NCBI GenBank assembly: GCA_011046135.1
Contig: DSBG01000111.1
Coordinates: 1-48,185 of the forward strand
Origin: Deltaproteobacteria bacterium
GTDB lineage: Bacteria > Desulfobacterota > Desulfomonilia > UBA1062
Length of the DNA stretch: 48,185 nucleotides
Direction: 5' to 3'
The notes beneath the pieces were generated by a model. That model was not told the origin of the DNA and ran no database searches. It was given only the letters and a program-made list of their open reading frames with translations. Positions within the stretch are counted from its first letter, which is position 1; every line of letters starts with the position of its first letter. Both the position numbers and the translations under genes were made by a program. Shown piece after piece: positions 9,070 to 39,373 of this stretch.

Positions 9070-9085
9070 AACTCGGAGGTCTTCC

Positions 9086-10372
9086 ATGGAACGGTTTGCA
9101 GTGCAGGGAGGATACATTATCACCTCGCCCGGAAACATCCTCAAAGACAGCTACCTTATTGTCGAGGGGACCACTATTGAAGCGGTTTCAGAGACGCTCC
9201 CTCCGGAAATCTCTGTGGTTCTGGGCGGTCCGTTCGACATCGTGATTCCCGGCCTCGTCAACACGCACACCCATGCACCCATGACGCTCTTCAGAGGAAT
9301 GGCGGATGACCTTCCGCTGATGAAGTGGCTCCATGAGTATATCTTTCCGGCAGAGGCTCGATTTGTAGACAGGGAGTTTGTCTACATGGGGTCGCTCCTT
9401 GCGGCCTGGGAGATGACTCGTTCGGGAACGACAGCCTTCTGTGACGGATACTTCTTTGAGGACGAGGTGGGCCGTGCCGCGAAGGAGGTGGGGATCAGGG
9501 CGTGGATCGGTGAAGGAATTCTTCAGTTTCCCACGCCTTCCCTCGCAGATCCAGCTCGAACCATCGAACACACCAGGGACTTTATCGAACGTTGGGTTGA
9601 AGATCCCCTTGTCAAGCCGACGGTTTTTCCCCATGCAGCCTATACCTGCAGCCCCGAACTCCTGGTTCAGGCCCGCGAGCTTGCCCGACAGTATGATCTC
9701 CTCTTCCAGATCCACCTGAGCGAGACCTCTGCAGAAGTCGAACAGGTACGCAAGGATCATGGCCTCTCCCCGGTAGAACTGCTGGATTCCCTTGGATGTC
9801 TCTCCGAGAAGACACTGGCAGCCCACTGCGTAGTCCTCACCGATCACGATATCAGCCTCCTTGCACAGCACGCCGTCTCGGTCTCCCATAACGCTGAGAG
9901 CAACATGAAACTCACATCGGGAATCGCCCCTGTTCCCCAGATGATCGCAGCCGGGATCAATGTTACCATCGGCACCGACGGGTGCGCCAGCAACAACAAT
10001 CTCGACCTCATCGGGGAAATCTCGACAGTGGCAAAACTCCACAAGATCAACACCATGGATCCCACCGTGCTCGATGAATGCACTTCCCTTGCGCTCGCAA
10101 CCGAAAACGGCGCTCGTGCCCTGGGCTTTGCTGGGGGACGGCTTGAGGCGGGAAAGGTAGCCGACATCACGGTGCTCGATGGCCACGCACCCAACCTGGT
10201 CCCGGTTCACAATCCCATCTCGCACGTGATCTACGCCGCGATGGGGGCGAACGTAAAGGACGTGGTGATAGACGGCAGGATCGTTGTGAAAAACTTCACC
10301 TCAATGACCGTGGACGAGGAGTCGCTCATCAGAGAATGTAGAACAATCCAGGAATTCCTCAGCAGGAGATAG
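9086..10372 (+). CDS. mtaD: 5-methylthioadenosine/S-adenosylhomocysteine deaminase (amidohydrolase)
   Basis: A 428-aa cytoplasmic amidohydrolase. Metal ligands are visible as VNTHTHAPM (HxH), then LFQIHLSET, SVSHNAESNMKL and IGTDGCASNNNLDL. The RGMADDLPLMKWL segment after the HxH is typical of MtaD/SAH deaminases, which convert adenosine-type thioethers to inosyl products in methyl-cycle salvage. A related ATZ/TRZ enzyme with another substrate cannot be excluded. The start at 9086 is preceded by GGAGGT at 9075-9080. Confidence 0.82.
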   Translation: MERFAVQGGYIITSPGNILKDSYLIVEGTTIEAVSETLPPEISVVLGGPFDIVIPGLVNTHTHAPMTLFRGMADDLPLMKWLHEYIFPAEARFVDREFVYMGSLLAAWEMTRSGTTAFCDGYFFEDEVGRAAKEVGIRAWIGEGILQFPTPSLADPARTIEHTRDFIERWVEDPLVKPTVFPHAAYTCSPELLVQARELARQYDLLFQIHLSETSAEVEQVRKDHGLSPVELLDSLGCLSEKTLAAHCVVLTDHDISLLAQHAVSVSHNAESNMKLTSGIAPVPQMIAAGINVTIGTDGCASNNNLDLIGEISTVAKLHKINTMDPTVLDECTSLALATENGARALGFAGGRLEAGKVADITVLDGHAPNLVPVHNPISHVIYAAMGANVKDVVIDGRIVVKNFTSMTVDEESLIRECRTIQEFLSRR

Positions 10373-25982: not shown

Positions 25983-26867
25983 ATGGAAGAACATCCATCA
26001 TCGTCAACTCCCTCCGAACTGTTTCTGTCGTGGATAAAAGCAGCTCAGCAGTTCTGGGGTCCCTTGACAGGGATGCAACCAGAGAACATATCAGAAACAG
26101 AAACAACCCCGAATGGTGCACGCCGTCTTCCCCAGGATGCCCTCATGACGATCCTCAAGTCATGGGGGACCCTCACGAGCGCCATGACCGAACCCTCTTC
26201 ATTGGATTCAGTGTCCCGGTCCCTTTCCCTGATGCCTGATTTCGTCATGAAGGTCTTTCAGTCAAGCCTTGGGAGCTATATGAAACTCCAGGAGCAGCTG
26301 CTCGCCAAGACACAGAATCTCGGGAAAGAGGCCGAGGCCTACCGCTTCGACAACCTTGATCAGGATTCACTGAAGGCGTGGTCTGATTTCTACAAATCAG
26401 AAATACGCCAGTATCTCAACATCCCCCAACTCGGGCTCACGCGGTTCTATCAGGAGCGCATGAACCAGACCATTGACAAGTTCAATGTATTCTCAACCTC
26501 CTTGGCTGAATTCATGCAGGTTCTCTCTCTCCCCTTTGAGAAAAGCATCAAGGTCATGCAGGACAAGATAGAAGATCTCACCCGGGAAGGGAAGCTTCCC
26601 GAGGACCCCCAGGAATATTATCGCATGTGGATCAAGATCCTTGAGGGACATTTCATGACGTTGTTCAAGTCTGAGGAGTATACCAGGGCAATGGCAGAGA
26701 CCCTGGGAAACCTCGAGGAGTTTCTCTATTCAAGGAACAGAATCATCGAGGATTCCCTCCAGTCGCTCCCGATTCCCTCAAACAAGGACATGGATGATCT
26801 CTATCAGGAACTCTACCAGATCAAAAAACGGATAAAAAACCTGGAAAAAAATACCGCTAACCCGTAA
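25983..26867 (+). CDS. phaE: Class III PHA synthase subunit PhaE
   Basis: A 294-aa partner of PhaC in class III polyhydroxyalkanoate synthase, which polymerises short-chain (R)-3-hydroxyacyl-CoA. The PhaE domain is clear in the second half: RFYQERMNQTIDKFNVF, EYYRMWIKILEGHFMTLFKSEEY, and a terminal coiled coil (MDDLYQELYQIKKRIKNLEKN). The N-terminal third is variable. Ribosome site GAGGTGA lies 3 bp before the ATG. phaC starts 21 bp after its stop. Confidence 0.93.
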   Translation: MEEHPSSSTPSELFLSWIKAAQQFWGPLTGMQPENISETETTPNGARRLPQDALMTILKSWGTLTSAMTEPSSLDSVSRSLSLMPDFVMKVFQSSLGSYMKLQEQLLAKTQNLGKEAEAYRFDNLDQDSLKAWSDFYKSEIRQYLNIPQLGLTRFYQERMNQTIDKFNVFSTSLAEFMQVLSLPFEKSIKVMQDKIEDLTREGKLPEDPQEYYRMWIKILEGHFMTLFKSEEYTRAMAETLGNLEEFLYSRNRIIEDSLQSLPIPSNKDMDDLYQELYQIKKRIKNLEKNTANP

Positions 26868-26888
26868 TCGTTGCAGGGAGGAGTCCGC

Positions 26889-28103
26889 ATGGAGAAACCG
26901 AAAATCCCCGTCGATACTATCCTTCGTCACCTGGCTCAGGATGCCGACAGGGTGCAGGAACGCGCACAGAAGGCCTCCGACATCCTGCTGAGTCCCCTGA
27001 GCACCGAGATAGCAAGCACCCCCTATGAGATCGTGTACCAGGAAGACCGGGTGAAACTGAAGCACTACCTCCCGGTGAGGGAGCCGTCAAAAGACATTAC
27101 AAGGCCGCTCTTGGTCGTGTATGCCCTCATCAACCGCGAGACCATGCTGGATCTGCAACCGGAACGGTCGGTTGTGAAGAACTTCCTGGAAGCGGGGATC
27201 GACCTCTACATGATCGACTGGGGATACCCCTCCAGGAAAGACAAGTTTCTCACCATCGATGACCACGTCAACGGGTACATGGACAACATCGTGGAGTACA
27301 TACGCAGCAAGAACAAGGTGGACAAGATCAACCTCATGGGCATCTGCATGGGGGGAACCTTCTGTGTGATCTATTCAGCCCTGCACCCGGAGAAGGTGAA
27401 AAACCTGGTGACCACGGTGTGCCCGACAAACTTCGATACAGAAGAAGGCTTACTCCACATCTGGATGAAAGATGTCGACGTCGACCGGATGATCGATGCC
27501 TTCGGAAACATGCCGGGGGACCTCATGAATTTCGGGTTCCTGCTGCTGAACCCCGCCCGGTTGATGATCGACAAGTACGTGGGATTTTTTGAGAACATGG
27601 ACAATAAGTCATTCGTGGAAAATTTCATACGCATGGAGAAGTGGATCTTCGACAGCCCCGATGTCCCCGGAGAAACCTTCAGGCAATTCGTGAAAGACTG
27701 CTACCAGAAAAACCTCCTGATCCAGAGCAAACTGATGGTAGGCGGAAAACGGGTTGATCTGAAAAAACTCACCATGCCGCTGCTCAACATCTACGGACAG
27801 TACGATCACCTGGTTCCTCCTGGAGCAGCCAACAAGATTACAGGCAAGGTGGGAAGCAAGGATACCGAGGATGTCTGTCTCGACACGGGGCATATCGGTA
27901 TCTATGTCAGCTCAAAGACTCAGCGGGAATTCACGCCGAAAATTATTCAGTGGCTTGCGCACAGGGATGCCGATACCAGGGGCTCTCCCGAGAAGAAGGG
28001 CACCAGACCAAAGAAAGCCGCATCAGAGTCGAAGAAAGACGATATGCAGTGGAACAAAAGGATCGCTCGATTAAAGGAGAGGAGTCATGCCCGAGAAAAG
28101 TGA
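26889..28103 (+). CDS. phaC: Class III PHA synthase subunit PhaC
   Basis: A 404-aa alpha/beta-hydrolase-fold polymerase. The nucleophile Cys153 sits in GICMGG, the lipase-box variant of PHA synthases; the other triad members are the Asp of YGQYDHLVPP and the His of DTGHIGIYVS. IDWGYPSRKDKF is typical of class III. The last 45 residues (after WLAHRDAD) form a lysine/arginine-rich tail longer than usual for the family. The start at 26889 follows GGGAGGAG. The tail overlaps the GAF gene by 17 bp. Confidence 0.95.
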   Translation: MEKPKIPVDTILRHLAQDADRVQERAQKASDILLSPLSTEIASTPYEIVYQEDRVKLKHYLPVREPSKDITRPLLVVYALINRETMLDLQPERSVVKNFLEAGIDLYMIDWGYPSRKDKFLTIDDHVNGYMDNIVEYIRSKNKVDKINLMGICMGGTFCVIYSALHPEKVKNLVTTVCPTNFDTEEGLLHIWMKDVDVDRMIDAFGNMPGDLMNFGFLLLNPARLMIDKYVGFFENMDNKSFVENFIRMEKWIFDSPDVPGETFRQFVKDCYQKNLLIQSKLMVGGKRVDLKKLTMPLLNIYGQYDHLVPPGAANKITGKVGSKDTEDVCLDTGHIGIYVSSKTQREFTPKIIQWLAHRDADTRGSPEKKGTRPKKAASESKKDDMQWNKRIARLKERSHAREK

Positions 28104-29139
28104 GTTCTTTAACACATTTTGCAAGGTCAGCAGGGCACTGGGAACCACGGTGGACAGGCAGGAGCTGCTGAATCTCATTGTCAGCAGCGCCATCGAGACC
28201 ATGGAAGGCAAGGCCGCGTGCCTGTTCCTGGAAGATGTTGACAGGAAAACCGGAATGATGATCGCTCAGGCACAGAAGGGGCTCTCCAAGAGCTACCTCC
28301 ATGAAGAGCCTCGAGAGGCGAAACGCGCCGCAGAAGAGATCATGAAGAAAGGCTATATTGCCATTCATGATGCCACCAAGGATTCTCGTGTCCAGTACCA
28401 CGAGATGAAAAAGAAAGCGGGGATCGCCTCCATCCTCATCGTTCCGGTCATGGTCATGGATCGGGTAATCGGTGTCCTCGCACTGTATACGGCACAACCG
28501 AGGATCTTCACCGACGAAGAGATCGAATTTCTCCGAGCTCTGGCAGAACAGGGAGGAATGGCCATCGAGCGGGCACGGCTCATCGCTCAGATCAGGAACA
28601 ACACCAAACTCTTTCACGATCTCTCCGTGGGGATGAACTCAAGCCTCGATGTGAAAAAGATCATGGAGACCATGTCTGTGGATCTCGCACAGGCCTTTGG
28701 TGTCAAGGCCGTTTCTGTTCGTCTCCTCGACAATGAGAAAAAGATCCTCAAGCTCGTTGCCAGTTATGGGCTGAGCGAGAACTATCTGAAAAAGGGTCCA
28801 ATTTCTGCAGAGAAGAGCATAGCAGAGGCATTGAAGGGTAACCCTATTGTGGTGAAGAATGCAGCAGATGATGCAGGGGTCCAGTATAAAGATGAAAAGA
28901 AAGAGGAGGGAATCGTATCCATCCTGTGTGTCCCCATCAAGGCAAAAGAAGAGGTGATCGGTGTTCTCAGGCTCTACAGCGGGGTCCCCAGAGAATTCAC
29001 CGAAGATGAGATCCTGCTTGCAAGCGCCATTGCTCACCAGGGAGGACTCGCAATACAGAATGCATCCCTGTACCTGATGCTGCAGGAGGACATGAAGTGT
29101 CTCAAGGAGGATATCTGGAGCCATCGATCCTGGTTCTGA
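28087..29139 (+). CDS. Tandem GAF-domain protein in the PHA operon
   Basis: A 350-aa cytoplasmic protein of two GAF domains (about residues 10-165 and 185-340) with no recognisable output domain. Each has the repeated core pattern: AxxxxxxxDxxxQYxxExKxxGIxSILxVP followed by a VIGVLxLY strand and FTxDEIxFLxxxAxQGGxAI. GAF domains bind small ligands such as cyclic nucleotides or haem; the ligand is not predictable. Ribosome site AAGGAGAGG lies within the phaC tail. Tight coupling to phaC suggests a sensor or scaffold for PHA metabolism. Confidence 0.8.
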   Translation: MPEKSEFFNTFCKVSRALGTTVDRQELLNLIVSSAIETMEGKAACLFLEDVDRKTGMMIAQAQKGLSKSYLHEEPREAKRAAEEIMKKGYIAIHDATKDSRVQYHEMKKKAGIASILIVPVMVMDRVIGVLALYTAQPRIFTDEEIEFLRALAEQGGMAIERARLIAQIRNNTKLFHDLSVGMNSSLDVKKIMETMSVDLAQAFGVKAVSVRLLDNEKKILKLVASYGLSENYLKKGPISAEKSIAEALKGNPIVVKNAADDAGVQYKDEKKEEGIVSILCVPIKAKEEVIGVLRLYSGVPREFTEDEILLASAIAHQGGLAIQNASLYLMLQEDMKCLKEDIWSHRSWF

Positions 29140-29214
29140 AGAGGCATCTCGTGTTTGTCAGAAAAAGGACAACGTACAACGGTATACATCAACCATAGAA
29201 ACAAGGAGGTATTC

Positions 29215-29643
29215 ATGCTGGGAAGAACCATTGCAGAACTCAAGATAGGAGACTTTGCCGAGTTTTCCAAGACTGTTACCGAGACGGATGTCTATCTCTT
29301 CGCTGGGGTCGTGGGTGATTTCAACCCCGCGCACGTGAACGAAGAGTATGCTAAAAACACCTTTTTCAAGACACGGATTGCCCATGGCATGCTTTCTGCC
29401 GGGTTTATCTCAGCGGCAATCGGCATGAAGCTCCCTGGTCCCGGAACGATCTACATGGGACAGGAACTGAAATTTCTCGCCCCTGTCCGCATCGGTGATA
29501 CCGTGACTGCCCACGTGGAGATTTCGGAAATCAATACGGAGAAAAACCGCATCAGGCTCACGACATACTGCACAAATCAGAACGGGGAGAAGGTGCTCGA
29601 CGGGTATGCCATGGTGAGTCCGCCGAAAGCACCGAAATCCTGA
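29215..29643 (+). CDS. phaJ: MaoC-like (R)-specific enoyl-CoA hydratase
   Basis: A 142-aa hot-dog-fold hydratase. The hydratase-2 motif is intact with catalytic Asp35 and His40 (VGDFNPAHVNEEYA), followed by IAHGMLSAGFIS and GTIYMGQELKFLAPVRIGD. PhaJ makes (R)-3-hydroxyacyl-CoA from beta-oxidation enoyl-CoA, supplying the adjacent synthase. The start at 29215 has a perfect AAGGAGGT at 29203-29210; an upstream GTG/TTG frame is rejected. It sits 75 bp after the GAF gene. Confidence 0.9.
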   Translation: MLGRTIAELKIGDFAEFSKTVTETDVYLFAGVVGDFNPAHVNEEYAKNTFFKTRIAHGMLSAGFISAAIGMKLPGPGTIYMGQELKFLAPVRIGDTVTAHVEISEINTEKNRIRLTTYCTNQNGEKVLDGYAMVSPPKAPKS

Positions 29644-29725
29644 CGCTCATTCTGATGATATCTCAACGGAGAAGGTTGTCAATCCGTCGAGGCTCCATCT
29701 CCTAGGCTCCAGGCGATAATAGTGC

Positions 29726-30307
29726 TCACCCCTTCCTGGGTTTCTTCACCCGGGAAGTTTTCTTTCGGGGTGTAGGTGTTCTCGGCGTATTTTTCTTTGG
29801 AGCACCAGAAGAAGATTTTTCCTGTTCCCCTGGAGACTGATCCTCGACGAAGACCTCTCCGAGGCCCTTGATCATCTCCTGGAATTGCCGTGTCTGCTCG
29901 CTCATGAGGGCCTGGAATCCCGCAACGGACTCATCGAGGGAATACTTTTCCTTGAGCAGCTGCTGCAGTTCTTCAACCGTGTTCTCGAGAGAGTGGACCT
30001 GTGCTTCGAGTTCTTCCTTCTCGTTGAGGATCTTCGTGAAATCATCCTTGGTCACGAGATCCATCAGGGAGAGGAATTCCCTGAAGGATTTCTGGAAATC
30101 CAGCAGAGATGCATTCCAGAACTTGAGGTATTCCGGGGTGTTCTTCAAGAATTCGTCAACACCATAGAGTTTGGTGAAAAGATCAGTCACCTCCTGGGTC
30201 CCCGAAACATTCCCCCTGAGCCACGTCACCATGTCTTCAAACTGCTGCTGGCCTTTGGCTGCAGCGAGAAAAAAATTTCCCCAGAATTCCATGAATTCTT
30301 TATCCAC
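29726..30307 (-). CDS. PhaE/PhaM-like coiled-coil granule protein with basic tail
   Basis: A 193-aa helical protein. Residues 1-90 resemble PhaE/phasin helices (FWNASLLDFQKSFREFLSL), 90-130 form a strong coiled coil (EKEELEAQVHSLENTVEELQQLL), and the last 30 are Pro/Lys/Arg-rich (TPRTPTPRKKTSRVKKPRK). Basic C-terminal tails of this sort in PhaF and PhaM are known to bind DNA and link PHA granules to the nucleoid. It overlaps the PhaC-like gene by 8 bp, forming a second synthase/partner pair. Confidence 0.7.
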   Translation of the reverse strand: MDKEFMEFWGNFFLAAAKGQQQFEDMVTWLRGNVSGTQEVTDLFTKLYGVDEFLKNTPEYLKFWNASLLDFQKSFREFLSLMDLVTKDDFTKILNEKEELEAQVHSLENTVEELQQLLKEKYSLDESVAGFQALMSEQTRQFQEMIKGLGEVFVEDQSPGEQEKSSSGAPKKNTPRTPTPRKKTSRVKKPRKG

Positions 30308-31883
30308 GTGAACTTCCCTCCTTCATCTCCCTTTCGAGATCCAATTGGAACCGAACCGGGCCTCGAGAACCGTCCGGATACCGGTTCTGGATGGCAAATT
30401 CAGAGTCAGGGACAGACCAGCTCGTAGCAATTGCCCCATGTCCCTTGGGAAACACCGTGACCTCCGCATCGACATAGTCTAGAGGGGCCAGGGCAGATTC
30501 CTTGTCCACCAGATCATCACTGTTTGCATAGCAGATCAGAAACTTGATCCCCTTTTCCGTGAGGTCCCTGAAATTGAGCTTCCTTCCAAACAGCGTGACG
30601 GGAATGGTCCCGTCCTGTGTTACCGGGATCGTGTAGGAATCAAAACTCATCTTGGTGATGGCCACAGGGATGTCCTTGCGGTCATAGATGAGCCAGTGGT
30701 TCATGGCTGCAGCCGTCGTGGTGATCTTCACGTCTCTTCCATTCGAACCGTCGAAGAGCATGAGGTCCCGATAGAGGGTGTAGAGCGGGGCTTCCTTCTC
30801 CATGCTCTTGAGCTTGTACACCCAGCTCATCACCTTGCCGTCCACCACCTTGTTTCCACTGGGGAGATCCTTTTCCGCATACCCGAGATCCCTGAACCGA
30901 GGAGGAAGGTGCTCCATGTATTCAACGAGGGCCTTGGAGCGGGTTCCATCCATGGGTGCAACACAGGTGATCAGAGCATCCACAAGGCCGTCGAGCTCCC
31001 CGGAGAGAATATTGAGGACTGCAATGAAACCACCCTGGCAAAATCCGTTCAGCGTGACCTGAGCACCGTGACGTTTCTTCAGGATTTCACAGAATAATTT
31101 TGTATCCAGTGCATCGTCTTCACCGGTCATAGTCTGAACCGCCGGTGTTGTGTCGATATCCTTCAAAATCCGTATGTAGGTGGGAACCCCCTGGTTTGCG
31201 AATGCATGGACATAGCTCTTTCCCTCGTTGGGGAGAAAAGCCAGAATATTGGCCCCCAGAACATAGGGATGGATGATCATCACAGGTTTCCCTTTCTCCC
31301 TGACCTTCACCTTCCTGTTCGGGAGCACCTGATAGAGCAGGAACCGCTCCGTCTCACCAGCCTTCACATACCCATCACGCTCAAAGTGGAACCCGAATTC
31401 AGAACCGATGTCATCGATCGCCTTGGGATACTCGTATACGACCTTTTCCAGGAGACGGGCCTGCCTGGAGACAAAGGCTTCGATGTTTTCTCCTTCACGT
31501 TCGAACATGGTATTCAGCCATGCGGAAAACGCCCTCGATATCTCTTCAAGATGAAAATCGTGCATGATTCGTACAGTACTCCTCATCCCCTTGTTGGCAA
31601 CCTGGATGTTGAACTGGAGGAGTTCCAGATAGTCCCGGATATTGTCATGCGGGGTGTTCCGGAGGAGCTTTTCCCGCTCCGTGTTTGTGAAAGAATTCAG
31701 GGCGATCCAGAAGGGAGTCATGAATTCGTTGATGTACTTGAAGATGCCGTTCCAGTAAATCTCGATGGCCGTTGTCTTCTCACGGGTTGCATTGGTAATG
31801 GCCATTGCCGTATCCAAGGCTTGCTCAAGTCCTTTGGCCAAGGACCCGTAATAGTCAAACGAAACATCTATGAGTTCTTTCAT
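30300..31883 (-). CDS. Divergent PHA-synthase-like alpha/beta hydrolase with helical N-terminus
   Basis: A 527-aa protein. Residues 1-150 are helical and phasin-like. From about 165 comes a hydrolase fold with the PhaC-type nucleophile Cys282 in GFCQGG, an acid near Asp456 (YANSDDLVD) and a histidine near 482 (FPKGHGAIAT). The Cys in the lipase box points to acyl-thioester chemistry as in PhaC rather than a serine depolymerase. It is much longer than class III PhaC. A GGAGGG abuts the ATG directly, an unusually short spacing. It follows three mini-phasin genes. Synthase, transferase or depolymerase activity remains open. Confidence 0.72.
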   Translation of the reverse strand: MKELIDVSFDYYGSLAKGLEQALDTAMAITNATREKTTAIEIYWNGIFKYINEFMTPFWIALNSFTNTEREKLLRNTPHDNIRDYLELLQFNIQVANKGMRSTVRIMHDFHLEEISRAFSAWLNTMFEREGENIEAFVSRQARLLEKVVYEYPKAIDDIGSEFGFHFERDGYVKAGETERFLLYQVLPNRKVKVREKGKPVMIIHPYVLGANILAFLPNEGKSYVHAFANQGVPTYIRILKDIDTTPAVQTMTGEDDALDTKLFCEILKKRHGAQVTLNGFCQGGFIAVLNILSGELDGLVDALITCVAPMDGTRSKALVEYMEHLPPRFRDLGYAEKDLPSGNKVVDGKVMSWVYKLKSMEKEAPLYTLYRDLMLFDGSNGRDVKITTTAAAMNHWLIYDRKDIPVAITKMSFDSYTIPVTQDGTIPVTLFGRKLNFRDLTEKGIKFLICYANSDDLVDKESALAPLDYVDAEVTVFPKGHGAIATSWSVPDSEFAIQNRYPDGSRGPVRFQLDLEREMKEGSSRG

Positions 31884-31918
31884 CCATCCCTCCTGAATCA
31901 GCTCTGCGCGTATTGATG

Positions 31919-32197
31919 TTACTTCGTCTTTGCCTTTTCTGCGGTGGAAAAGAACTCATCGACCCGTTTAAAGTTCTCATCCACGGCCTTTCTGTAATCG
32001 TCTCTGGCCTTCTTGTAGGTTGTCATCCACTGATTCAGGACATTCTTTCCCTCTTCGGGGATCCACGTCGCCTGACCCATGAACGTGCTGAGCATCTTTT
32101 CGGTCTGATCCTGCAGCATCACCATCGCATTGAAACTGTTGACAAACGTTGTCTTGTGAAAATCTATCATCTGTTTTACGATCTGTTTCTGATCCAT
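31919..32197 (-). CDS. Mini-phasin-like protein, copy 3 of the tandem
   Basis: A 92-aa all-helical protein starting MDQKQIVKQMIDFHKTTF. It shares with the two upstream genes the pattern KQM...KTxFxxxFxxMVxLQDQxEKM, a WxPEEG turn, and KxRDDYRKAVDExxxRVDEFF. It belongs to the general type of amphipathic phasins that coat PHA granules. Ribosome site GGAGGATAAGTC precedes the ATG. Next gene downstream begins 35 bp later. Confidence 0.72.
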   Translation of the reverse strand: MDQKQIVKQMIDFHKTTFVNSFNAMVMLQDQTEKMLSTFMGQATWIPEEGKNVLNQWMTTYKKARDDYRKAVDENFKRVDEFFSTAEKAKTK

Positions 32198-32228
32198 GAC
32201 TTATCCTCCGTATTGTTAGAACGTTTCG

Positions 32229-32501
32229 TTATTTTCCACCAAACTTTTCGAAAAATTCCTCTACCTTCTGGTATCCTTCGTCAACAGAATTCTTGAAGTC
32301 TTCTCGGCCTTTCTTGAAAGAATTAACCCACTGATCGAGGGCCTTACGTCCATCTGCCGTGATCCAGGGTGCCTGTTCGAGTACTGTCTTGACCATTTTC
32401 TCTGCCTGGTCCTGCAGCATCACCATCGTTCCGAAGCTGCTGTCAAAGGTTGTTTTCTGCATACTGATCATCTGCTTAACGAATTCCTTCTGATACTCCA
32501 T
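32229..32501 (-). CDS. Mini-phasin-like protein, copy 2 of the tandem
   Basis: A 90-aa paralogue of the neighbours. MEYQKEFVKQMISMQKTTF and LQDQAEKMV align with copies 1 and 3, with WITADGRKALDQW at the central turn and VDEGYQKVEEFFEKF at the end. It lacks any signal or membrane segment. Ribosome site GAGGAAAGAG precedes the ATG. Spacings of 44 and 31 bp to its neighbours indicate one transcript. Confidence 0.72.
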   Translation of the reverse strand: MEYQKEFVKQMISMQKTTFDSSFGTMVMLQDQAEKMVKTVLEQAPWITADGRKALDQWVNSFKKGREDFKNSVDEGYQKVEEFFEKFGGK

Positions 32502-32545
32502 TTCTCTTTCCTCCCCGTGAATTGTTTTTTTGTTGTACTTATTAT

Positions 32546-32815
32546 CTAGTTACGAGAGGCTTTCTCAAAAAAGTCATGCGCCTTCAGGTAACCGTCATCG
32601 ACGAGTTTTTTAAAATCCTCTCTTCCTTCTCTGCAGTTGGATAGTAGGGAATCAAGCACCTTTCTCCCTTCTTCCGGAAGCCAGCCTGTCTGATCGATGA
32701 GAGAACCCACCATCTTCTCCATCTGGTCCTGAATGACAAGGAGCATGGTGAATCCGTTGTCAAAGGATGTCTTGTGAAGATCAAGCATTTGTTTGACGAG
32801 GTTTTTCTGATCCAT
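32546..32815 (-). CDS. Mini-phasin-like protein, copy 1 (promoter-proximal)
   Basis: An 89-aa protein starting MDQKNLVKQMLDLHKTSF, with IQDQMEKMVGSLIDQ, a WLPEEGRKVLDSLL turn and FKKLVDDGYLKAHDFFEKA. The start at 32815 is chosen for its AGGAGGGTCCC ribosome site; an upstream in-frame start adds a non-homologous, polar leader lying over the promoter's 5' leader. It is first in the minus-strand PHA operon and should be the best-expressed copy. Confidence 0.72.
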   Translation of the reverse strand: MDQKNLVKQMLDLHKTSFDNGFTMLLVIQDQMEKMVGSLIDQTGWLPEEGRKVLDSLLSNCREGREDFKKLVDDGYLKAHDFFEKASRN

Positions 32816-32856
32816 GGGACCCTCCTGCTGATTATTTTTACTGTTCGTTGTGTTAC

Positions 32857-32885
32857 ACAATAGTGGTTACAGCAATGGTTGTCAA
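32857..32885 (-). promoter_or_regulatory. Sigma70-type promoter of the phasin operon
   Basis: On the minus strand TTGACA (32880-32885) and TATTGT (32857-32862) are exactly 17 bp apart, about 42 bp upstream of the first phasin ATG. The spacer contains TTGC, a half-site that recurs in this intergenic region. Confidence 0.65.
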
Positions 32886-32894
32886 GGGGTAATT

Positions 32895-33047
32895 TTGCAG
32901 TGCAGCATTATAATTTGTTAGCTATTCCCTTTCAGCTCATGGGCGATATTATATAACTATCAATTTTATTTATATAAAAGAGCCTTTCGGGTTCTAGAAA
33001 GCACTGGTCATACCAGGGGCCTAGCGATTGTTGTTGCGATGTAGCAA
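32895..33047. promoter_or_regulatory. Candidate PhaR operators between the phasin operon and phaR
   Basis: Two TTGC/GCA-rich elements lie in the divergent region. TTGCAGTGCAGCA (32895-32907) contains overlapping TGCA units just upstream of the phasin -35. TTGC-N6-GCAA (33034-33047) is an inverted repeat just before phaR. PhaR proteins studied in other bacteria bind TGC/GCA-rich sites and repress phasin and their own genes. Assignment is by analogy. Confidence 0.4.
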
Positions 33048-33058
33048 TCTTGTGTGCT

Positions 33059-33595
33059 ATGGTGAAGCCCACTGTATCAGGGCAGAACCGTGAAAACACC
33101 GCAGTACGGGGAGAAGATTCCGACGTGAGAGAGAAAATTATCCTGAAAAAATATGCCAGCAGAAGGCTCTATGATACGGCGAACAGCTCATACGTCACGC
33201 TGTCACAACTGGCTGATCTGATCAAGAGCGGACATGAAGTCCAGGTGTTCGATGCCAAGACCAGGGAGGATGTGACGGCGTTCATTCTCACCCAGATCAT
33301 CCTTGAGGAAGCGAAGAACAAGCATACGCTGTTGCCTGCTCCCCTCCTCCACATCATCATCCGGTATGGGAGCTCCATCTTGCAGGAATTCTTTGAAACA
33401 CACCTCCTCCAGACTATCAACACCTACCTGGAGCTCAAAAAGACGTTTGATGAGCAGATCCGCATGTGGCTCGATGTGGGAATGAACTATTCAGAGATAA
33501 CGAAAAAAACCCTTTCGAATATTTCCCCGTTGAATCCTTTCTCCAGCCAGGAATTTGGACGAGAACACAAAGACCTGGAGAAAAAAGAGCCGTAA
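33059..33595 (+). CDS. phaR: Polyhydroxyalkanoate synthesis regulator PhaR
   Basis: About 178 aa. The PHB/PHA accumulation regulator DNA-binding domain is unmistakable: ILKKYASRRLYDTANSSYVTLSQLADLIKSGHEVQVFDAKTREDVT, followed by LTQIILEEA. The second domain (LLHIIIRYGSSILQEFFETHLLQTI) is the PHA-binding/oligomer part. In known systems PhaR represses phasin genes until it is titrated by nascent PHA. ATG 33059 has no ribosome site; GTG 33125, preceded by GGGGAG, begins closer to the conserved domain and may be the true start. Confidence 0.92.
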   Translation: MVKPTVSGQNRENTAVRGEDSDVREKIILKKYASRRLYDTANSSYVTLSQLADLIKSGHEVQVFDAKTREDVTAFILTQIILEEAKNKHTLLPAPLLHIIIRYGSSILQEFFETHLLQTINTYLELKKTFDEQIRMWLDVGMNYSEITKKTLSNISPLNPFSSQEFGREHKDLEKKEP

Positions 33596-33666
33596 ACAAA
33601 CCCTCTTGATAGCCTGCCAGCAGGGCTTCCCTTGACATTGCGTGGGAAGGCAGAATTTGGGAGAAG

Positions 33667-34719
33667 CTAGGCAGCCTCCACCGCTTTCCGAGAACTCCCA
33701 GTGCGCGATAAGATAAAACTCAGCGCCTCGGGCCAGGAGTGCTTCAGGGAATTCCTTCCCATAAATACCGAGATGTGCCCTGCCTGGGGGATGACAACCT
33801 TGAAAATGTCCTCGTCGGCAGTGGAGATATGGTCCCGCAGGTTGAAGAGCTGTGGAACGAGGGTGATGTCATCCTTTTCTCCTGCCAGCATTGCAACGGG
33901 GCAGTCAATAACTCCGAGATCTACGGGCTTGCCCAGAACCACGAGCTCTCTCGTGATGAGCTGGTTTTTCATGAAGAGTTTTCGAACTGCCTGCAGGTAC
34001 CACTTGCCCGAGATGTTCTGGGTATATTCGTACCAAGTCTGAAATTTTTTCACGCGATTAACGAAGTCCTTGTCCCTGACATTGATCCACAGGTTTATAT
34101 AGTCGCTGCAAAACCTCTCATATGAATTCAGAATCTTCCAGCCCATGAGCATGTATTCACCAGGTATTGTCCCTCCACCCAGGGCGACCAGCGTCCGATA
34201 GAAGTTGATCGGCATCTTCTGAACCACCTCCTGGATCTTGCCTCCTCCTGCGGTGAAGTCAATGGGTGCCGCAGCGAGGATGAGGGCAGATACATCCATG
34301 GGATACAACGCAGAATAGATTGCGCAGAGCCATCCCCCCTGGCACAGCCCAACGAGAAGAGCAGGCCCGCCAACCTCGTTGACGCAGATTCTGAGCTGTC
34401 GAACCAGGTCATCGATGGATTCATCCCTGCGCAAGGGTGTGCTTGGTTTCCACTCAATGGCATAGACCGGGGACTCGGTCAGCTCCAGACATGTCTGTAC
34501 CAGGCTCTGGTCCTGATCATAATCCGCGATACTCGAGTGGTGCCCTGCCTGGGGAGGAACGATAAGAAGAGGAACGCCTGTTCGGCCATTGTCGAATTTC
34601 CTCAGGACTATCGCTTTGTCTTCATAGAGGATCGTGTTGGGAGAGAACCACTCGGGTGTTCTGCGGTAGGTTGCGGTGTTGATGAAACGGGCAATATCCA
34701 AGCAAGATGAAAGCATCAA
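33667..34719 (-). CDS. Third PhaC-like alpha/beta hydrolase
   Basis: A 350-aa protein with a PhaC-type nucleophile Cys126 in GLCQGG, an acid in LAGEKDDITLV and His in IPQAGHISVF. PLLIVPPQAGHHSSIADYD near residue 50 and YAIEWKPSTP resemble the substrate-binding strands of PHA synthases. It lacks the PhaE-type partner directly beside it. It may be a synthase paralogue, a thioesterase or an acyl-transferase; depolymerases normally use serine. It converges with phaR across 71 bp. Confidence 0.72.
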   Translation of the reverse strand: MMLSSCLDIARFINTATYRRTPEWFSPNTILYEDKAIVLRKFDNGRTGVPLLIVPPQAGHHSSIADYDQDQSLVQTCLELTESPVYAIEWKPSTPLRRDESIDDLVRQLRICVNEVGGPALLVGLCQGGWLCAIYSALYPMDVSALILAAAPIDFTAGGGKIQEVVQKMPINFYRTLVALGGGTIPGEYMLMGWKILNSYERFCSDYINLWINVRDKDFVNRVKKFQTWYEYTQNISGKWYLQAVRKLFMKNQLITRELVVLGKPVDLGVIDCPVAMLAGEKDDITLVPQLFNLRDHISTADEDIFKVVIPQAGHISVFMGRNSLKHSWPEALSFILSRTGSSRKAVEAA

Positions 34720-35033: not shown

Positions 35034-35798
35034 ATGAAAGAAATCATCATCATGCCGTGCCTTGATATGAAGGAAGGCAGGGTGGTCAAAGGTGTTCATT
35101 TTGTCGATATTCGTGATGCCGGCGACCCGGTGGAGCACGCTCGCTTCTATCAGGAAGAAGGGGCAGATGAGCTCGCGATCCTTGATATCGCTGCCACCCA
35201 GGAAAACCGCAAAACGAGAAGAGAGTGGGTACAAAAGGTCTCGTCTGTTATCGACATCCCCTTGACCGTCGGTGGTGGCATCTCCTCACTGGAAGATATC
35301 GACTTCATTCTCGAAGCAGGCGCCGACAAGGTCTCCATAAATACCGGTGCAGTGAGAAGACCTGATCTCATTCGCGAAGCTGCAGAAAAATTTGGTTCAG
35401 ACAGGATTACGGTAGCCATCGATGCCCGGAGAAATACCGTCCTTCCCTCTGGGTTTGAACTCGTTGTCTCCGGAGGAAACCTCCCCATCGCTCAGGATGC
35501 CATTCAATGGGCGAAACACTGTGAAGAACTTGGGGCAGGGTGTCTCCTTCCCACCAGCATGGATGGTGATGGCACACTCAAGGGGTACGACATAGCCTTT
35601 ACCAGGGCAATCGCTGATGCGGTAACTCTTCCTGTGGTGGCCTCCGGTGGAGCGGGAACCCTGGAGGACTTCTACACGGCCGTAACCGAAGCAAAGGCCC
35701 AGATCCTTCTGGCAGCCTCGGTCTTCCATTTCAGGACGTTCAGGATTAGTGAGGTGAAAGACTATCTGCACTCCCGAGGCATACCGGTCAGGCGGTAA
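35034..35798 (+). CDS. hisF: HisF, imidazole glycerol phosphate synthase cyclase subunit
   Basis: A 254-aa TIM barrel that, with HisH, forms imidazole glycerol phosphate and AICAR. Asp11 (MPCLDMKEG) and the second catalytic Asp in VAIDARRN are in place, with GGGISSLED and ASGGAGTLED phosphate loops. The start at 35034 has GGAAGGAG upstream and places Asp11 correctly. It stands away from hisBA and without hisH. Its last 11 bp overlap the convergent iron-sulfur gene. Confidence 0.95.
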   Translation: MKEIIIMPCLDMKEGRVVKGVHFVDIRDAGDPVEHARFYQEEGADELAILDIAATQENRKTRREWVQKVSSVIDIPLTVGGGISSLEDIDFILEAGADKVSINTGAVRRPDLIREAAEKFGSDRITVAIDARRNTVLPSGFELVVSGGNLPIAQDAIQWAKHCEELGAGCLLPTSMDGDGTLKGYDIAFTRAIADAVTLPVVASGGAGTLEDFYTAVTEAKAQILLAASVFHFRTFRISEVKDYLHSRGIPVRR

Positions 35799-36951
35799 GA
35801 GAATCAGCTACAATCTCTGAGATCTCCCTGACCTGAAGAACCTCTTCCAGGCCTTCAGCCTTCAGGGCATCGTCCAACATCCGGTAACACTGGGGACAGG
35901 AGACGGCCACGATCTGTGCCCCGGTGGATGCGGCGTCCCGGATGCGGACCCGGCTTGCCAGATCATGACCGGTCCCCAGGATATCCGTGAAGAAATTACT
36001 CCCGCCACCTCCGCAGCACAGGCTATTTTGCATATTCCTGTCAAATTCCACAAGCCTCAGCCCTGGGATGGCGTTCAGTATCGCCCGGGGTGTATAATAC
36101 TCCCCGTTCCATCTCCCGAGATAGCAGGGGTCGTGATATGTGACGGTTGTGTCGAGCTGTCCAGGGGCTAGGTCTTTACCCATAAGATCTCGGAGTATCT
36201 TGGTGTAGTGATATACCTGAAATCTCCCTCCATGGAGGGGATACACGGTTTTCATGACATGGAAGGAGTGTGGGGAGAGGGTGATGATCCTCCTGATCCC
36301 CTTGTCGGAGAAGACCTTGATATTCTGCTCGGCAAGATGCGTGGCGAGCCCTTCCTCTCCCGCCGCGGCCACGTCATTACCATCAGAAATCTCCTCATTT
36401 CCCAGGATCCCGAAGGAAATATGCGCCTTTTTAAAGAGCATGGCCACAGAGCGCGCCATCGCCTTTCCCAGGTCATCGTAAGACCCGACATCTCCTATGT
36501 ACAAGAGATATCGCTGGTCTGTATAGGGTTCGATATCAAGACCTTCGGCCCAGGCAGCCCTTTGCTCTGCCGGCAACCTGTAGGGATTCCCGCTGGTGGA
36601 GATGGCCTTGAAATAATCCCGTACCTGAGGAGGAATCGTACCCTGCTCCACCATGTCCTTGCGTGCCGCAATGAAGACATCCACGAGCTTGTCTTTGATG
36701 TATGGCAGGGCACAGGCTTCAACGCAGTTTTTACAGGTGACGCAGGAGTAGAGGATCTGGGAAAATCGGTGTCCTGCCTCGACATCCCCGTTAATCCAGG
36801 CCCTGATGAGCCACATCCTGCCGCCAGAAGAAAACGACTCGAAGCGATATTTCAGATAGGCAGGGCAGTTGAAATCCTGGTAATTCGAAGGAAACTTGCA
36901 CCATCCGCAGCGGAAACACCGGTGAAGGATATCGATATAGTCACGTTCCAT
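35788..36951 (-). CDS. CCG-domain iron-sulfur protein (HdrD/GlcF-like)
   Basis: A 387-aa soluble electron carrier. Two cysteine clusters near the N-terminus (CFRCGWCKFP...NCP and CVTCKNCVEACAL) should bind [4Fe-4S]. Two CCG domains follow: YHDPCYLGRWNGEYYTPR with SLCCGGGG, and VSCPQCYRMLDDAL. This is the arrangement of HdrD and of glycolate oxidase GlcF. Its start overlaps the stop of the FAD oxidase by 1 bp (TGATG), so the pair is probably one complex. Confidence 0.85.
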   Translation of the reverse strand: MERDYIDILHRCFRCGWCKFPSNYQDFNCPAYLKYRFESFSSGGRMWLIRAWINGDVEAGHRFSQILYSCVTCKNCVEACALPYIKDKLVDVFIAARKDMVEQGTIPPQVRDYFKAISTSGNPYRLPAEQRAAWAEGLDIEPYTDQRYLLYIGDVGSYDDLGKAMARSVAMLFKKAHISFGILGNEEISDGNDVAAAGEEGLATHLAEQNIKVFSDKGIRRIITLSPHSFHVMKTVYPLHGGRFQVYHYTKILRDLMGKDLAPGQLDTTVTYHDPCYLGRWNGEYYTPRAILNAIPGLRLVEFDRNMQNSLCCGGGGSNFFTDILGTGHDLASRVRIRDAASTGAQIVAVSCPQCYRMLDDALKAEGLEEVLQVREISEIVADSLTA

Positions 36952-38339
36952 CAGCTCACCTCCCAGTTCCCTGGGTTCATGATCCCCGCAGGATCCAGAA
37001 CTTCTCTGATCCGCTTCATGAGTGAGTACGTTCCAGGATCCATCTGCTTCAAGATGAGCTGCTGCCCCTGGACTTCCGCCTTCCAGGGGATGCCGCCGAG
37101 CCTCAGGGAGGCTTCGTTCGTATCCTCCAGGGCCATTTTTACCTTTTCCACCTCATCAGCATCAACACGGTTGAACGGGTAGGCAAAGAAGAACATGGCA
37201 CAGTGCCCTTTCCCTATGATCCGTGCACCGAGGGAATAGGTGATGCCATGCCGTGCCGTAATCTCCATCCCTGCCCGGCATGCATCAGGGATCCGCTCTA
37301 TGGGCATGATGGCGCCGACATACTCGAACCCACCCCCTCTCCTGACGTCGGCAAACTTGCTCAGGGCCTTCTGGGGGGCCTCCAGAAACCCTGTTTTCAT
37401 GTTCGGCGGCACCGGCATGAATCCGGATTCCTTAGTTTCATAGAGATCCTTGAGCACATCGCGGATGATCTTCTTCTTTAGCGCCATCTCATCTTCGGAA
37501 TTAGCCGTGATGTTGATGACCATCATCTGAAACCCGTTGAGATAATCGGGCTTCGGCGAGAGTGCGTAGTTGATGTCTTCTGCTGTCTCTGTGTTGATAA
37601 CGCGCGTGAGCACCTCCGGCGCAAGATCTATGTCTTCGGTCATATAGACCAGGACATCGTGCAGCTTTGGCCTCGGATAGAGCTTGATTCCCACCTTGGT
37701 GATCACCCCGGTAGTTCCGTTCCAGCCGAGAAAGAGGCCCACGAGATCGGGCAGCGGTGCCCGAGAAAACCAGTACGGGACGGTGGAGCACGATCCGAGC
37801 TTCACGACATCCCCATTCGAAAGTACTACCTCGAGGCCGGTCACCATCTCGGAGTGAAAGCCTCCCTGACTCTGAGAGAGGTGTCCTGATCCATGGATTG
37901 CAATGTTCCCGGCAATGGTTGCCGCCGGAGGGGCATCGGGCAGAGAATGCTTCAGGTGGGGGAAATTTTTCTTCAGGTAGGCATCCAGCATGCCCTGGGA
38001 GGTCCCTCCCTCCACCACGGCATAGTGGCTTTTCTCATTGATCTCCAGGATCCGGTTCATCCGTTTCATATCCAGGACGATGCCACCTTTCAGGGGAACG
38101 GAAAGTCCTGAGAGTACGAGACCGCCTCCCATGGGCACGACGGGGATCTGTTCTCGGGAAGCAAGCCGCAGAATCTCCTGAACCTCCTCCGTGCTCGACG
38201 GCATGACGACGCAATCGGGCATGTGCGGGTCCTGAACACCCTGATCGCGTGAATAGATATAGAGATCCTCGGGTTCATTCGTAACGTATTCGCTGCTGAC
38301 AATTTCCCTGATTCGGGAGAGCGTCTCATTAGTGAACAT
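36951..38339 (-). CDS. FAD-linked oxidase, GlcD/D-lactate dehydrogenase type
   Basis: A 462-aa flavoprotein with the PCMH-type FAD-binding domain (MPSSTEEVQEILRLASREQ, VVPMGGGLVLSG, AATIAGNIAIHGSGHLSQ) and a C-terminal substrate-cap domain (PIERIPDACRAGMEIT; DPAGIMNPGNW). Relatives oxidise glycolate, D-lactate or D-2-hydroxyglutarate and related acids. Start ATG 38339 is preferred to 38378 because it avoids overlap with the upstream gene and begins at the usual helix. Sandwiched between two iron-sulfur genes. Confidence 0.88.
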   Translation of the reverse strand: MFTNETLSRIREIVSSEYVTNEPEDLYIYSRDQGVQDPHMPDCVVMPSSTEEVQEILRLASREQIPVVPMGGGLVLSGLSVPLKGGIVLDMKRMNRILEINEKSHYAVVEGGTSQGMLDAYLKKNFPHLKHSLPDAPPAATIAGNIAIHGSGHLSQSQGGFHSEMVTGLEVVLSNGDVVKLGSCSTVPYWFSRAPLPDLVGLFLGWNGTTGVITKVGIKLYPRPKLHDVLVYMTEDIDLAPEVLTRVINTETAEDINYALSPKPDYLNGFQMMVINITANSEDEMALKKKIIRDVLKDLYETKESGFMPVPPNMKTGFLEAPQKALSKFADVRRGGGFEYVGAIMPIERIPDACRAGMEITARHGITYSLGARIIGKGHCAMFFFAYPFNRVDADEVEKVKMALEDTNEASLRLGGIPWKAEVQGQQLILKQMDPGTYSLMKRIREVLDPAGIMNPGNWEVS

Positions 38340-38353
38340 CACACCACCCCCTT

Positions 38354-39373
38354 CTACTGGCCCAGCGCCATGAGGCACAGGTCCGACATCATAACGGGAA
38401 TCATGCCTGCCTTCGCCACGGGCCCGGCGAGGGTCCAGAAGCAGAACGGGCAGTTGAAAACGCTGAACTGGGCACCGCTGGCCTTCATATCCTCAACGTT
38501 TTTCCTCTGGAGTTCTTCGGAGAGCTCGAATCTCTGTGCCGCCTCGGGCACACCTCCGCAGCACAGGGCATTGGAATATTCATACGTTCTCCTGGGTCGC
38601 TGGGCGCCTATGAGCTCGAAAATGTCATCCACGAAGTGGTCCGTTTCCGGACAGAGTCTGTTCGAACATGGACGCTGGTATGCCACCTTTACATTAAGGG
38701 GCTTGATATCGGTCTTCACCTCCAACAGAGCGTGATAGAGATAATCGAAGAGGTGGACCGGGGTGAAGGGAACCTCAATGCCAAAGGCCGGGGCCCATGA
38801 GGTGTAGGTTCCGTAACACTCGTCGTGGTAACAGATGAGCTCTCTGATTCCCGAAGGCGTGAGGTAATTGGTCATGATGTTCTCGATCATGCGGGGAAGC
38901 CTCTCCTTGATGGTGGAGTTCCTGGCGAAGTGGAGAAACATGAGGTTGCAGAAGATATCGCTTCCCTCGATGGTGGTTGCTCCTTCGAAGAGCTTTCCCC
39001 TGATGCCGCCCTTCATGATGGAGAAGAAGCACATGTCGATCACTGGGCGCCTCACCTCCTTGGGCTGGATCTTGCCCCGGGGGCCCATCATGACGACCTG
39101 GGATTTCTCGATGGGGATGGGAATGGGGTGGACGCCCAGTTTTTCCTGCTGTTCCACGATGTGGTAGAAGGGGTGGTTGCGGTACGGACAGTATTCCTCG
39201 CACGCGTAGCATGTCACGCACTGGGAGAGAATCGACGATTTCTCACCCCTGACCAGTGCGTCATGTTCTCTCTTTGCCTCGTCCAGGTCCATAGAAATGT
39301 ACTGGCACCTCATGATGCAGTCAACACTTGTGCACCGGAGACAGAGTTCTGGATCGAATACTAGCTCATACAT
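38354..39373 (-). CDS. CCG-domain iron-sulfur protein (HdrB/D-like)
   Basis: A 339-aa protein. Cysteines CLRCTSVDCIMRC and CVTCYACEEYCPY near the N-terminus suggest two [4Fe-4S] clusters. Later, YQRPCSNRLCPE with NALCCGGVPEA and FNCPFCFWTL form two CCG motifs. ELICYHDECYGTYTSWAP contributes a further conserved Cys. It is first in the three-gene operon with the FAD oxidase and the second CCG protein, presumably moving electrons to or from the flavin. The ribosome site GAGGAGGGAG is strong. Confidence 0.82.
   Translation of the reverse strand: MYELVFDPELCLRCTSVDCIMRCQYISMDLDEAKREHDALVRGEKSSILSQCVTCYACEEYCPYRNHPFYHIVEQQEKLGVHPIPIPIEKSQVVMMGPRGKIQPKEVRRPVIDMCFFSIMKGGIRGKLFEGATTIEGSDIFCNLMFLHFARNSTIKERLPRMIENIMTNYLTPSGIRELICYHDECYGTYTSWAPAFGIEVPFTPVHLFDYLYHALLEVKTDIKPLNVKVAYQRPCSNRLCPETDHFVDDIFELIGAQRPRRTYEYSNALCCGGVPEAAQRFELSEELQRKNVEDMKASGAQFSVFNCPFCFWTLAGPVAKAGMIPVMMSDLCLMALGQ

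Follow-up and report, generated by a model that had tools for sequence, protein, structure and literature searches.

Gene Content of the Island

The window analysed here, a stretch of 48,185 nucleotides from a deltaproteobacterial genome (2.9 Mb in 181 contigs, 99% complete), carries at positions 25983-34719 an island of genes for polyhydroxyalkanoate (PHA) storage. Those relatives of this genome which have named records are metagenome-assembled genomes of Deltaproteobacteria/Thermodesulfobacteriota. The island consists of phaE, phaC, a tandem-GAF gene, phaJ, three mini-phasin genes, phaR and three genes given working names: CC for a coiled-coil protein, LX for a PhaC-like protein of 527 residues and C3 for a PhaC-like protein of 350 residues. 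Collected loci are labelled with L and scanned genomes with G. All eleven genes that an earlier note had called from the letters alone were recovered as open frames:

25983-26867, plus strand: phaE, class III synthase subunit (PF09712 74 bits, over cut-off; TIGR01834 73 bits, below cut-off)
26871-28103, plus strand: phaC, class III PHA synthase catalytic subunit, 410 residues, with a C-terminal extension (TIGR01836 437.6 bits, cut-off 365.3)
28087-29139, plus strand: tandem-GAF protein without output domain (PF13185/PF01590, two stretches)
29155-29643, plus strand: phaJ, (R)-specific enoyl-CoA hydratase of MaoC type (PF01575 83.8 bits; NF006045 153 bits, below cut-off)
29726-30307, minus strand: CC, coiled-coil protein with lysine-rich tail (net +8 over the last 40 residues), overlapping LX by 8 bases
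30300-31883, minus strand: LX, predicted PhaC-fold enzyme of an unclassified family, 527 residues (C282-D456-H482; helical N-domain 1-162; alpha/beta-hydrolase core)
31919-32197, minus strand: mini-phasin 1, 92 residues (family alignment)
32229-32501, minus strand: mini-phasin 2, 90 residues (family alignment)
32546-32815, minus strand: mini-phasin 3 (family alignment; frame extends to 32860)
32895-32905, no strand: putative PhaR operator-like palindrome TTGCAGTGCAG, between phaR and mini-phasin 3, beside a minus-strand promoter-like -10
33050-33595, plus strand: phaR, PHA-responsive transcriptional repressor (PF07879 93.3 bits; TIGR01848 102.6 bits, below cut-off 109.45)
33667-34719, minus strand: C3, PhaC/PhaZ-intermediate enzyme, 350 residues (C126 in GLCQGGW, D283/D284 and H315 invariant in 14/14)

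The frame of mini-phasin 3 is real, but its start was judged from the sequence to lie more likely at 32815 (MDQKNL...) than at 32860. By frame layout the genes form a plus-strand unit phaE-phaC-GAF-phaJ and a minus-strand unit running from mini-phasin 3 through mini-phasins 2 and 1 to LX and CC; phaR stands alone, divergent from mini-phasin 3, and C3 stands alone, convergent with phaR. The same block was found again in tens of loci, which far exceeds a chance arrangement, and the neighbourhood comparison among relatives supports the dedicated granule apparatus that had been proposed; the island is thus supported as a conserved PHA granule locus in anaerobic bacteria. Three PhaC-like proteins are present as claimed, but they are not one enzyme in triplicate: one is a class III synthase, LX represents a distant, separate family that is widespread, and C3, the rarer of these two, is intermediate between PhaZ and PhaC. 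The new point is the conserved, unclassified PhaC-fold family inside an apparently PhaR-controlled phasin operon, for which a role in mobilisation of the store is probable.

Family and Predicted Fold of LX

The window copy of LX matched no Pfam family even at an E-value of 10, and among 25 homologues only generic alpha/beta-hydrolase models were matched, by three members each. From NCBIfam the window copy matched only the class III PhaC model TIGR01836, at 25.3 bits far below the cut-off of 365, and the same model matched 21 of the 25 members at E <= 0.01 (best 8.3e-10). The PhaZ models TIGR01849 and NF050089 gave no match in window LX, nor in the 25 members at E <= 0.01, and in lacking a TIGR01849 match LX differs from PhaZ. 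Comparison of profiles by hhalign aligned LX with class III PhaC over 274 columns (probability 97.4, about 22% identity to the island PhaC) and paired the Cys, the Asp, the His and the cap motif W-x-x-D-x-x-D-x-P; the E-values of such comparisons refer to a database of one profile, and diversity was low (LX Neff about 2). Residues C282, D456 and H482 were invariant in the 25-sequence alignment, and the Cys-Asp-His triad was kept in 55/55 homologues.

The AlphaFold model of LX (predicted local distance difference test, pLDDT, 85.7; predicted template modelling score, pTM, 0.84) has long helices up to residue 162, followed by an alpha/beta-hydrolase core in which the triad residues come after the expected strands. 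In Foldseek the 15 best matches to this model were all PhaC chains, and in VIA-align PhaC entries took the first seven ranks (Z 25.6-27.7), with gastric lipase next at 22.8. These best structural matches were class I PHA synthases, from Aeromonas caviae (9knj-9knl), Chromobacterium (5xav) and C. necator (5t6o/5hz2). LX likewise has an N-terminal helical part and a catalytic part, but differs from them in its identity of 13-16%, in having no PhaC_N (PF07167) match and in forming a separate clade. With the class III PhaC that works with PhaE, LX shares the fold, the elbow G-x-C-x-G-G, the Asp and His motifs and the cap motif; it differs in its low score, in its helical N-domain of 160 residues and in the PhaR-type operator in front. 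The N-domain showed no relation to the CC, PhaE, mini-phasin or PhaR profiles. A search of PDB chains with the LX sequence profile gave no PhaC match at E <= 1 and one meaningless serpin match, so that the evidence for kinship with PhaC comes from matching profile to profile and from structure. When 60 proteins were placed in a tree, LX formed a single clade on a very long branch (5.15 changes per column), with an unsure placement, since joins of long branches are unsafe according to the program's own warning.

By its predicted PhaC-type fold and its Cys-Asp-His triad LX falls within the PHA synthase superfamily in the wide sense, and the best reading is that it represents a new PhaC-fold family. 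A literature search limited to non-subscription papers found no earlier description of it. For Haloferax mediterranei, PMC12863089 describes a genome with multiple PhaC-type genes whose roles are unclear and whose mutual identities are 44-60%. Several PhaC types likewise occur here, but LX differs from those paralogues in being a separate family, as distant from the island PhaC as given above.

Distribution and Neighbourhood of LX

LX was present in 20 of the 60 genomes of the first search among relatives; of 345 genomes from the phylum, 21 had it, in 17 of 225 genera. Class III PhaC scored above cut-off in 36 of the 345, and LX occurred in 15 of these 36 versus 6 of the 309 others (Fisher p 3e-12, kinship not corrected for). 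In two of the six LX genomes without class III PhaC (G121, G349), LX adjoins two class I PhaC genes; LX is not bound to one synthase class, because it also stands beside tandem class I PhaC in L075 and L076. The arrangement in these two loci (L075:6961-13799, L076:1460-8429) is LX with a long AAKP-rich tail, then a gene that by eye resembles a reductase of the short-chain dehydrogenase/reductase type, a mini-phasin-like gene and the two tandem class I PhaC genes. A scan with exact peptide patterns across GTDB, which finds close relatives only, gave 32 LX loci, titled Deltaproteobacteria/Thermodesulfobacteriota or subgroups; the two exceptions, titled Firmicutes and Pseudomonadota, are probably due to binning errors or loose naming. 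No match to LX was found on plasmids or phages. A complementary distribution of LX and DUF3141 was considered and gave no pattern: DUF3141 occurred in 9/42 genomes, and four of these (G197, G303, G311, G358) also had LX.

The surroundings were counted for 56 LX genes gathered by LX similarity alone, with the window excluded and the duplicate pairs L034/L069 and L041/L072 merged; L039/L040 and L047/L053 are LX pairs from single genomes, and the counts ignore kinship. A mini-phasin gene lay just upstream of LX in 43 cases and CC just downstream in 34. Within 7 kb there was phaR in 41, phaC in 37, the GAF gene in 33 and phaJ in 30 cases, and at least one of phaR, phaC and mini-phasin was near LX in 47. 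These are lower bounds because contig ends cut many loci. The block is also present without LX (L081, L085, L087), which makes LX an optional module. The earlier note had allowed that the PhaC-like proteins might be unrelated hydrolases without a conserved neighbourhood. What was found is a predicted PhaC fold and the neighbourhood above for LX, and for C3 a position beside phaR in all 14 cases of its own family (the window and 13 loci). Chance presence of an unrelated hydrolase is ruled out for LX by fold, profile match and neighbourhood.

The Operator-Like Palindrome

The mini-phasin-LX-CC operon of the window has a PhaR-type palindrome at its promoter (32895-32905). When the regions between phaR and the first mini-phasin were searched de novo for gapped palindromes, TGCAnTGCA turned up in 37 of 45; it was present in 0/45 shuffled controls, which kept single-base composition only, and in 0/45 regions upstream of phaE. 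Two of 47 phaR regions (L031, L032) had been left out as over-long, and L069 and L072 duplicate others among the 45. Counted over 45 loci (757 kb), 36 of the 48 sites lay within the phaR upstream range, in 35 loci. Ten loci had no palindrome upstream of phaR; in two of these ten, L031 and L032, it precedes a mini-phasin further along. The window contains one more exact copy of TTGCAGTGCAG, at 9096-9106 inside the coding frame 9032-10372, where it probably occurs by chance.

A weight matrix trained on 35 phaR-region sites was applied with a cut of 4.9, the best of 355 random control windows reaching 6.7; sites in L050, in L079 and before C3 are the only ones independent of its training. Strong operator-like sites stand before LX in L050 (19.5) and L079 (18.0), where LX has no upstream mini-phasin, and before C3 in 3 of 19 cases (L025, L058, L061). 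Upstream of the window C3 there was no operator (best score -0.7). On the synthase side 1/42 phaE regions exceeded the cut (8.5), and 0/55 phaC and 0/36 GAF regions did so.

In Sinorhizobium meliloti, according to PMC12542648, PhaR binds YGCRNYGCR palindromes in electrophoretic mobility shift assays at the promoters of phasins and polyhydroxybutyrate (PHB) depolymerases, and represses both until it is titrated by PHB; the palindrome of the island matches this motif. For R. eutropha, PMC3570403 reports that PhaR binds PHB and represses both phasin and itself. The class of operator together with the S. meliloti precedent assigns the mini-phasin-LX-CC operon, and C3 in some loci, to the genes expressed when granules are present, and not to the synthase side. 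Depolymerases are under PhaR in S. meliloti, and a PhaR-type operator is found here at the LX operon and at some C3 genes.

C3 and the Missing Depolymerase

C3 scored below the class III synthase cut-off (TIGR01836, 129.6 bits against 365.3) and below the PhaZ cut-off (TIGR01849, 59 bits against 300.75), and gave 61 bits with DUF3141. It resembles PhaZ in profile, and differs from it in this score and in its elbow, GLCQGGW and not CQP. In profile comparison its probabilities were 99.9 with PhaC, 98.9 with the PhaZ-like proteins of the islands and 97.5 with a PhaZ. In the tree C3 was a single clade outside the group of PhaC class I, PhaC class III and LX2 (group support 97). The structure model was poor (mean pLDDT 60.1). 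In islands of another lineage a PhaZ-like gene stands among the mini-phasins (L030, L031, L033-L035, L069; TIGR01849 110 bits in L069), and C3 is an alternative to this gene, both being PhaZ-leaning members of the island.

LX2 is a further PhaC-like family, of about 600-650 residues with the elbow AYCMGG/AYCMAG, seen in another lineage's islands. It lies beyond phaJ in L030:16795-18633, L031:13491-15269, L032:16793-18934, L034:16935-18884 and L069:1480-3429, and beside phaE in L087:3783-5663. It scores below every PhaC cut-off and has its own clade in the tree.

Of 47 genomes having PhaC or LX, none exceeded the TIGR01849 cut-off, and of 42 none exceeded that of NF050089. Matches to TIGR01849 below cut-off occurred in 11 of the 47: six were C3 (window included), one was PhaZ-like (G303), and four were in genomes with detached LX. 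As no canonical intracellular depolymerase exceeded its cut-off, LX and C3 are the best candidates in the window genome. PMC3430594 and PMC7147478 give PhaZ1 of R. eutropha as lacking a lipase box, with a reported thiolytic release of 3-hydroxybutyryl-CoA; a paper cited there has as its topic thiolysis by the PHA synthase. Given this precedent, an enzyme that combines the PhaC fold and an intact Cys triad with PhaR control would be in a good position to cleave PHA chains, and coenzyme A (CoA) might serve as acceptor.

The Synthase Operon, CC and the Mini-Phasins

Island phaC is class III, with TIGR01836 above cut-off and the end of phaE 3 bases upstream, and its five best PDB sequence matches were PHA synthases. 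The two GAF stretches noted earlier are present in the next gene, and its description as a sensor follows from the domain alone. In 21/21 homologues the C-terminal W349 and F350 were invariant in the alignment, and the protein occurs in loci with LX as well as in loci without it. Its C-terminus, WSHRSWF, resembles a docking tail. As a guess, the GAF protein could be a ligand-sensing partner of PhaEC. The best match of island phaJ is to the hydratase portion of a family of bifunctional enoyl-CoA hydratase/phosphate acetyltransferases; on a Methylorubrum populi plasmid (L092:216-4389) a DUF3141 PhaC-like protein is flanked by fabI and such a bifunctional enzyme.

The mini-phasins are paralogues of a single family, mini-phasins 1 and 3 being 49% and 46% identical to mini-phasin 2. 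Matches to phasin profiles were scattered, with 1 of 25 family members matching PF05597 (1e-4), 1 of 25 matching PF09361 (0.009) and none for mini-phasin 2 of the window.

The window CC had no Pfam phasin match, and 1 of 21 CC proteins matched PF05597 (E 0.0019). The CC coil aligned with the PhaE C-terminus at an hhalign probability of 78 over 56 columns, a weak result since coiled coils match easily. A lysine/alanine-rich tail was found on LX itself in L042, L043, L048, L050, L056, L075 and L076. Many loci have a basic tail on CC or LX and many LX/CC pairs have none; the window LX is without one. An LX-CC fusion in loci lacking CC was rejected, as LX there ends in low-complexity tails and the CC profile matched 0/55 LX proteins. 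That basic tails on CC and on LX exclude each other was suspected and is not claimed, the independent cases being too few. PMC3430594 and PMC7203880 describe PhaM of R. eutropha and PhaF of P. putida as granule proteins that link granules to the nucleoid or chromosome. CC or LX is similarly basic-tailed in many loci, but has no family-level match to PhaM/PhaF. The lysine-rich tails on CC or LX, with the CC coil, suggest by analogy a possible granule-nucleoid link.

Beyond the island, at 35788-39373, follow three minus-strand genes which by eye we take to encode iron-sulfur/CCG-domain and FAD-linked oxidoreductase subunits.

A Tentative Role for LX and C3

We tentatively favour, at a little short of even confidence, a reading in which the island combines a synthase operon with a PhaR-controlled granule-surface set, and in which LX (with CC) and C3 would cut PHA chains and mobilise the store. 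It builds on the gene content, its conservation, the predicted fold with its triad, the neighbourhood and the operator placement; binding of PhaR here, location on the granule, the reaction with its direction and tethering to DNA are what we infer from these. The synthase operon phaE-phaC-GAF-phaJ, without a PhaR-type site, would work first through PhaJ, which would supply (R)-3-hydroxyacyl-CoA, and PhaC-PhaE, which would polymerise it. Once polymer appears, PhaR would move from its operator to the granule surface, allowing expression of the mini-phasins, LX and CC, the granule-surface set comprising these together with phaR and C3. LX would most likely sit on the granule by means of its helical N-domain and CC, and may cut chains through a covalent acyl-cysteine, whether hydrolytically or with transfer to CoA, and thereby mobilise the store. 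A lysine-rich tail on CC or LX would probably tie granules to DNA as in PhaM/PhaF, and C3 may be a second, PhaZ-leaning enzyme on the degradative side. The several catalytic roles proposed in the earlier note are plausible, the placement of PhaR sites pointing to the degradative side for LX and C3. A more specific version, which we consider speculative and on balance unlikely, is that LX founds a family of PhaC-derived, PhaR-controlled enzymes that would return the polyester thiolytically as hydroxyacyl-CoA, with CC at the granule surface, and so save the thioester energy for energy-starved anaerobes.

Several observations weigh against a degradative role. The Cys-Asp-His triad would suit a thiolase or hydrolase, but equally a synthase, and the LX profile is nearer to PhaC (probability 97.4) than to PhaZ (0.5 against a single sequence). 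No pha marker lies near nine of the 56 LX genes, and of the 12 detached or displaced copies tested, 10 lacked a strong operator in front (one reached 5.9, over the cut of 4.9). C3 or a PhaZ-like gene lies within 7 kb in 18/56 LX loci, so LX is not simply the sole depolymerase. Of the 36 PhaC genomes, the 21 without LX are also without a canonical PhaZ over cut-off; other, yet unrecognised depolymerases must exist there, and the argument from a depolymerase gap is suggestive only, as these genomes hold no such candidate by the models used. PhaR regulons also contain non-degradative genes, as PMC12542648 states.

The strongest competitor, possible but doubtful in our judgement, is that LX and CC form a second PHA synthase pair, with CC in the place of PhaE, made once granules exist and serving other monomers or the re-entry of chains. 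The best profile and fold matches of LX are synthases, its layout with a helical N-domain is class I-like, the CC coil resembles the PhaE C-terminus (probability 78), and the LX and CC frames overlap by 8 bases. Yet LX stands with PhaR-controlled phasins and not in the synthase operon, and a full set of PhaEC or class I PhaC is already present alongside it. In the tree LX has a very long branch, at 5.15 changes per column, and its scores with synthase models are far below cut-off. It is improbable that LX is chiefly a granule organiser or a PhaM/PhaF-like tether between granule and nucleoid, with catalysis secondary. The lysine/alanine-rich tails on CC or on LX and the place of LX in the phasin operon would suit such a duty, but the triad and nearby motifs are invariant in 55 sequences, which a structural duty alone would not preserve, and tails are missing from the window LX and from many LX/CC pairs.

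Still less probable is that LX acts on another acyl-thioester or lipid and belongs to the island for regulation only, the detached copies keeping the original duty. The nine LX genes away from pha markers favour this, as does the detached LX of L053, whose neighbours we take to be acyl-CoA dehydrogenase-like and acyl-CoA ligase-like genes. Against it stand the strong association of LX with PhaC genomes, the PhaR-type operator of two detached or displaced copies, and the finding of PhaC elsewhere in all five detached-LX genomes tested (G373-G377). That C3 alone is the depolymerase and LX a decaying synthase copy is very improbable: C3 leans to PhaZ in profile and TIGR01849-type genes stand among the mini-phasins of the six loci named above, but LX shows no sign of decay (0/55 disabled triads) and C3 or a PhaZ-like gene lies within 7 kb in only 18 of the 56 loci, which had been collected by LX.

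If LX has the favoured, degradative role, the PHA synthase fold would have been reused at the granule surface under a different regulation. The operator ties PhaR control in these anaerobes to that proven in Alphaproteobacteria. PHA breakdown in the bacteria of this phylum with class III synthase is unexplained by known families, and LX and C3 are concrete candidates for it. Thiolytic release, if true, would matter for syntrophs and sulfate reducers living near the energy limit, and for the recycling of bioplastics.

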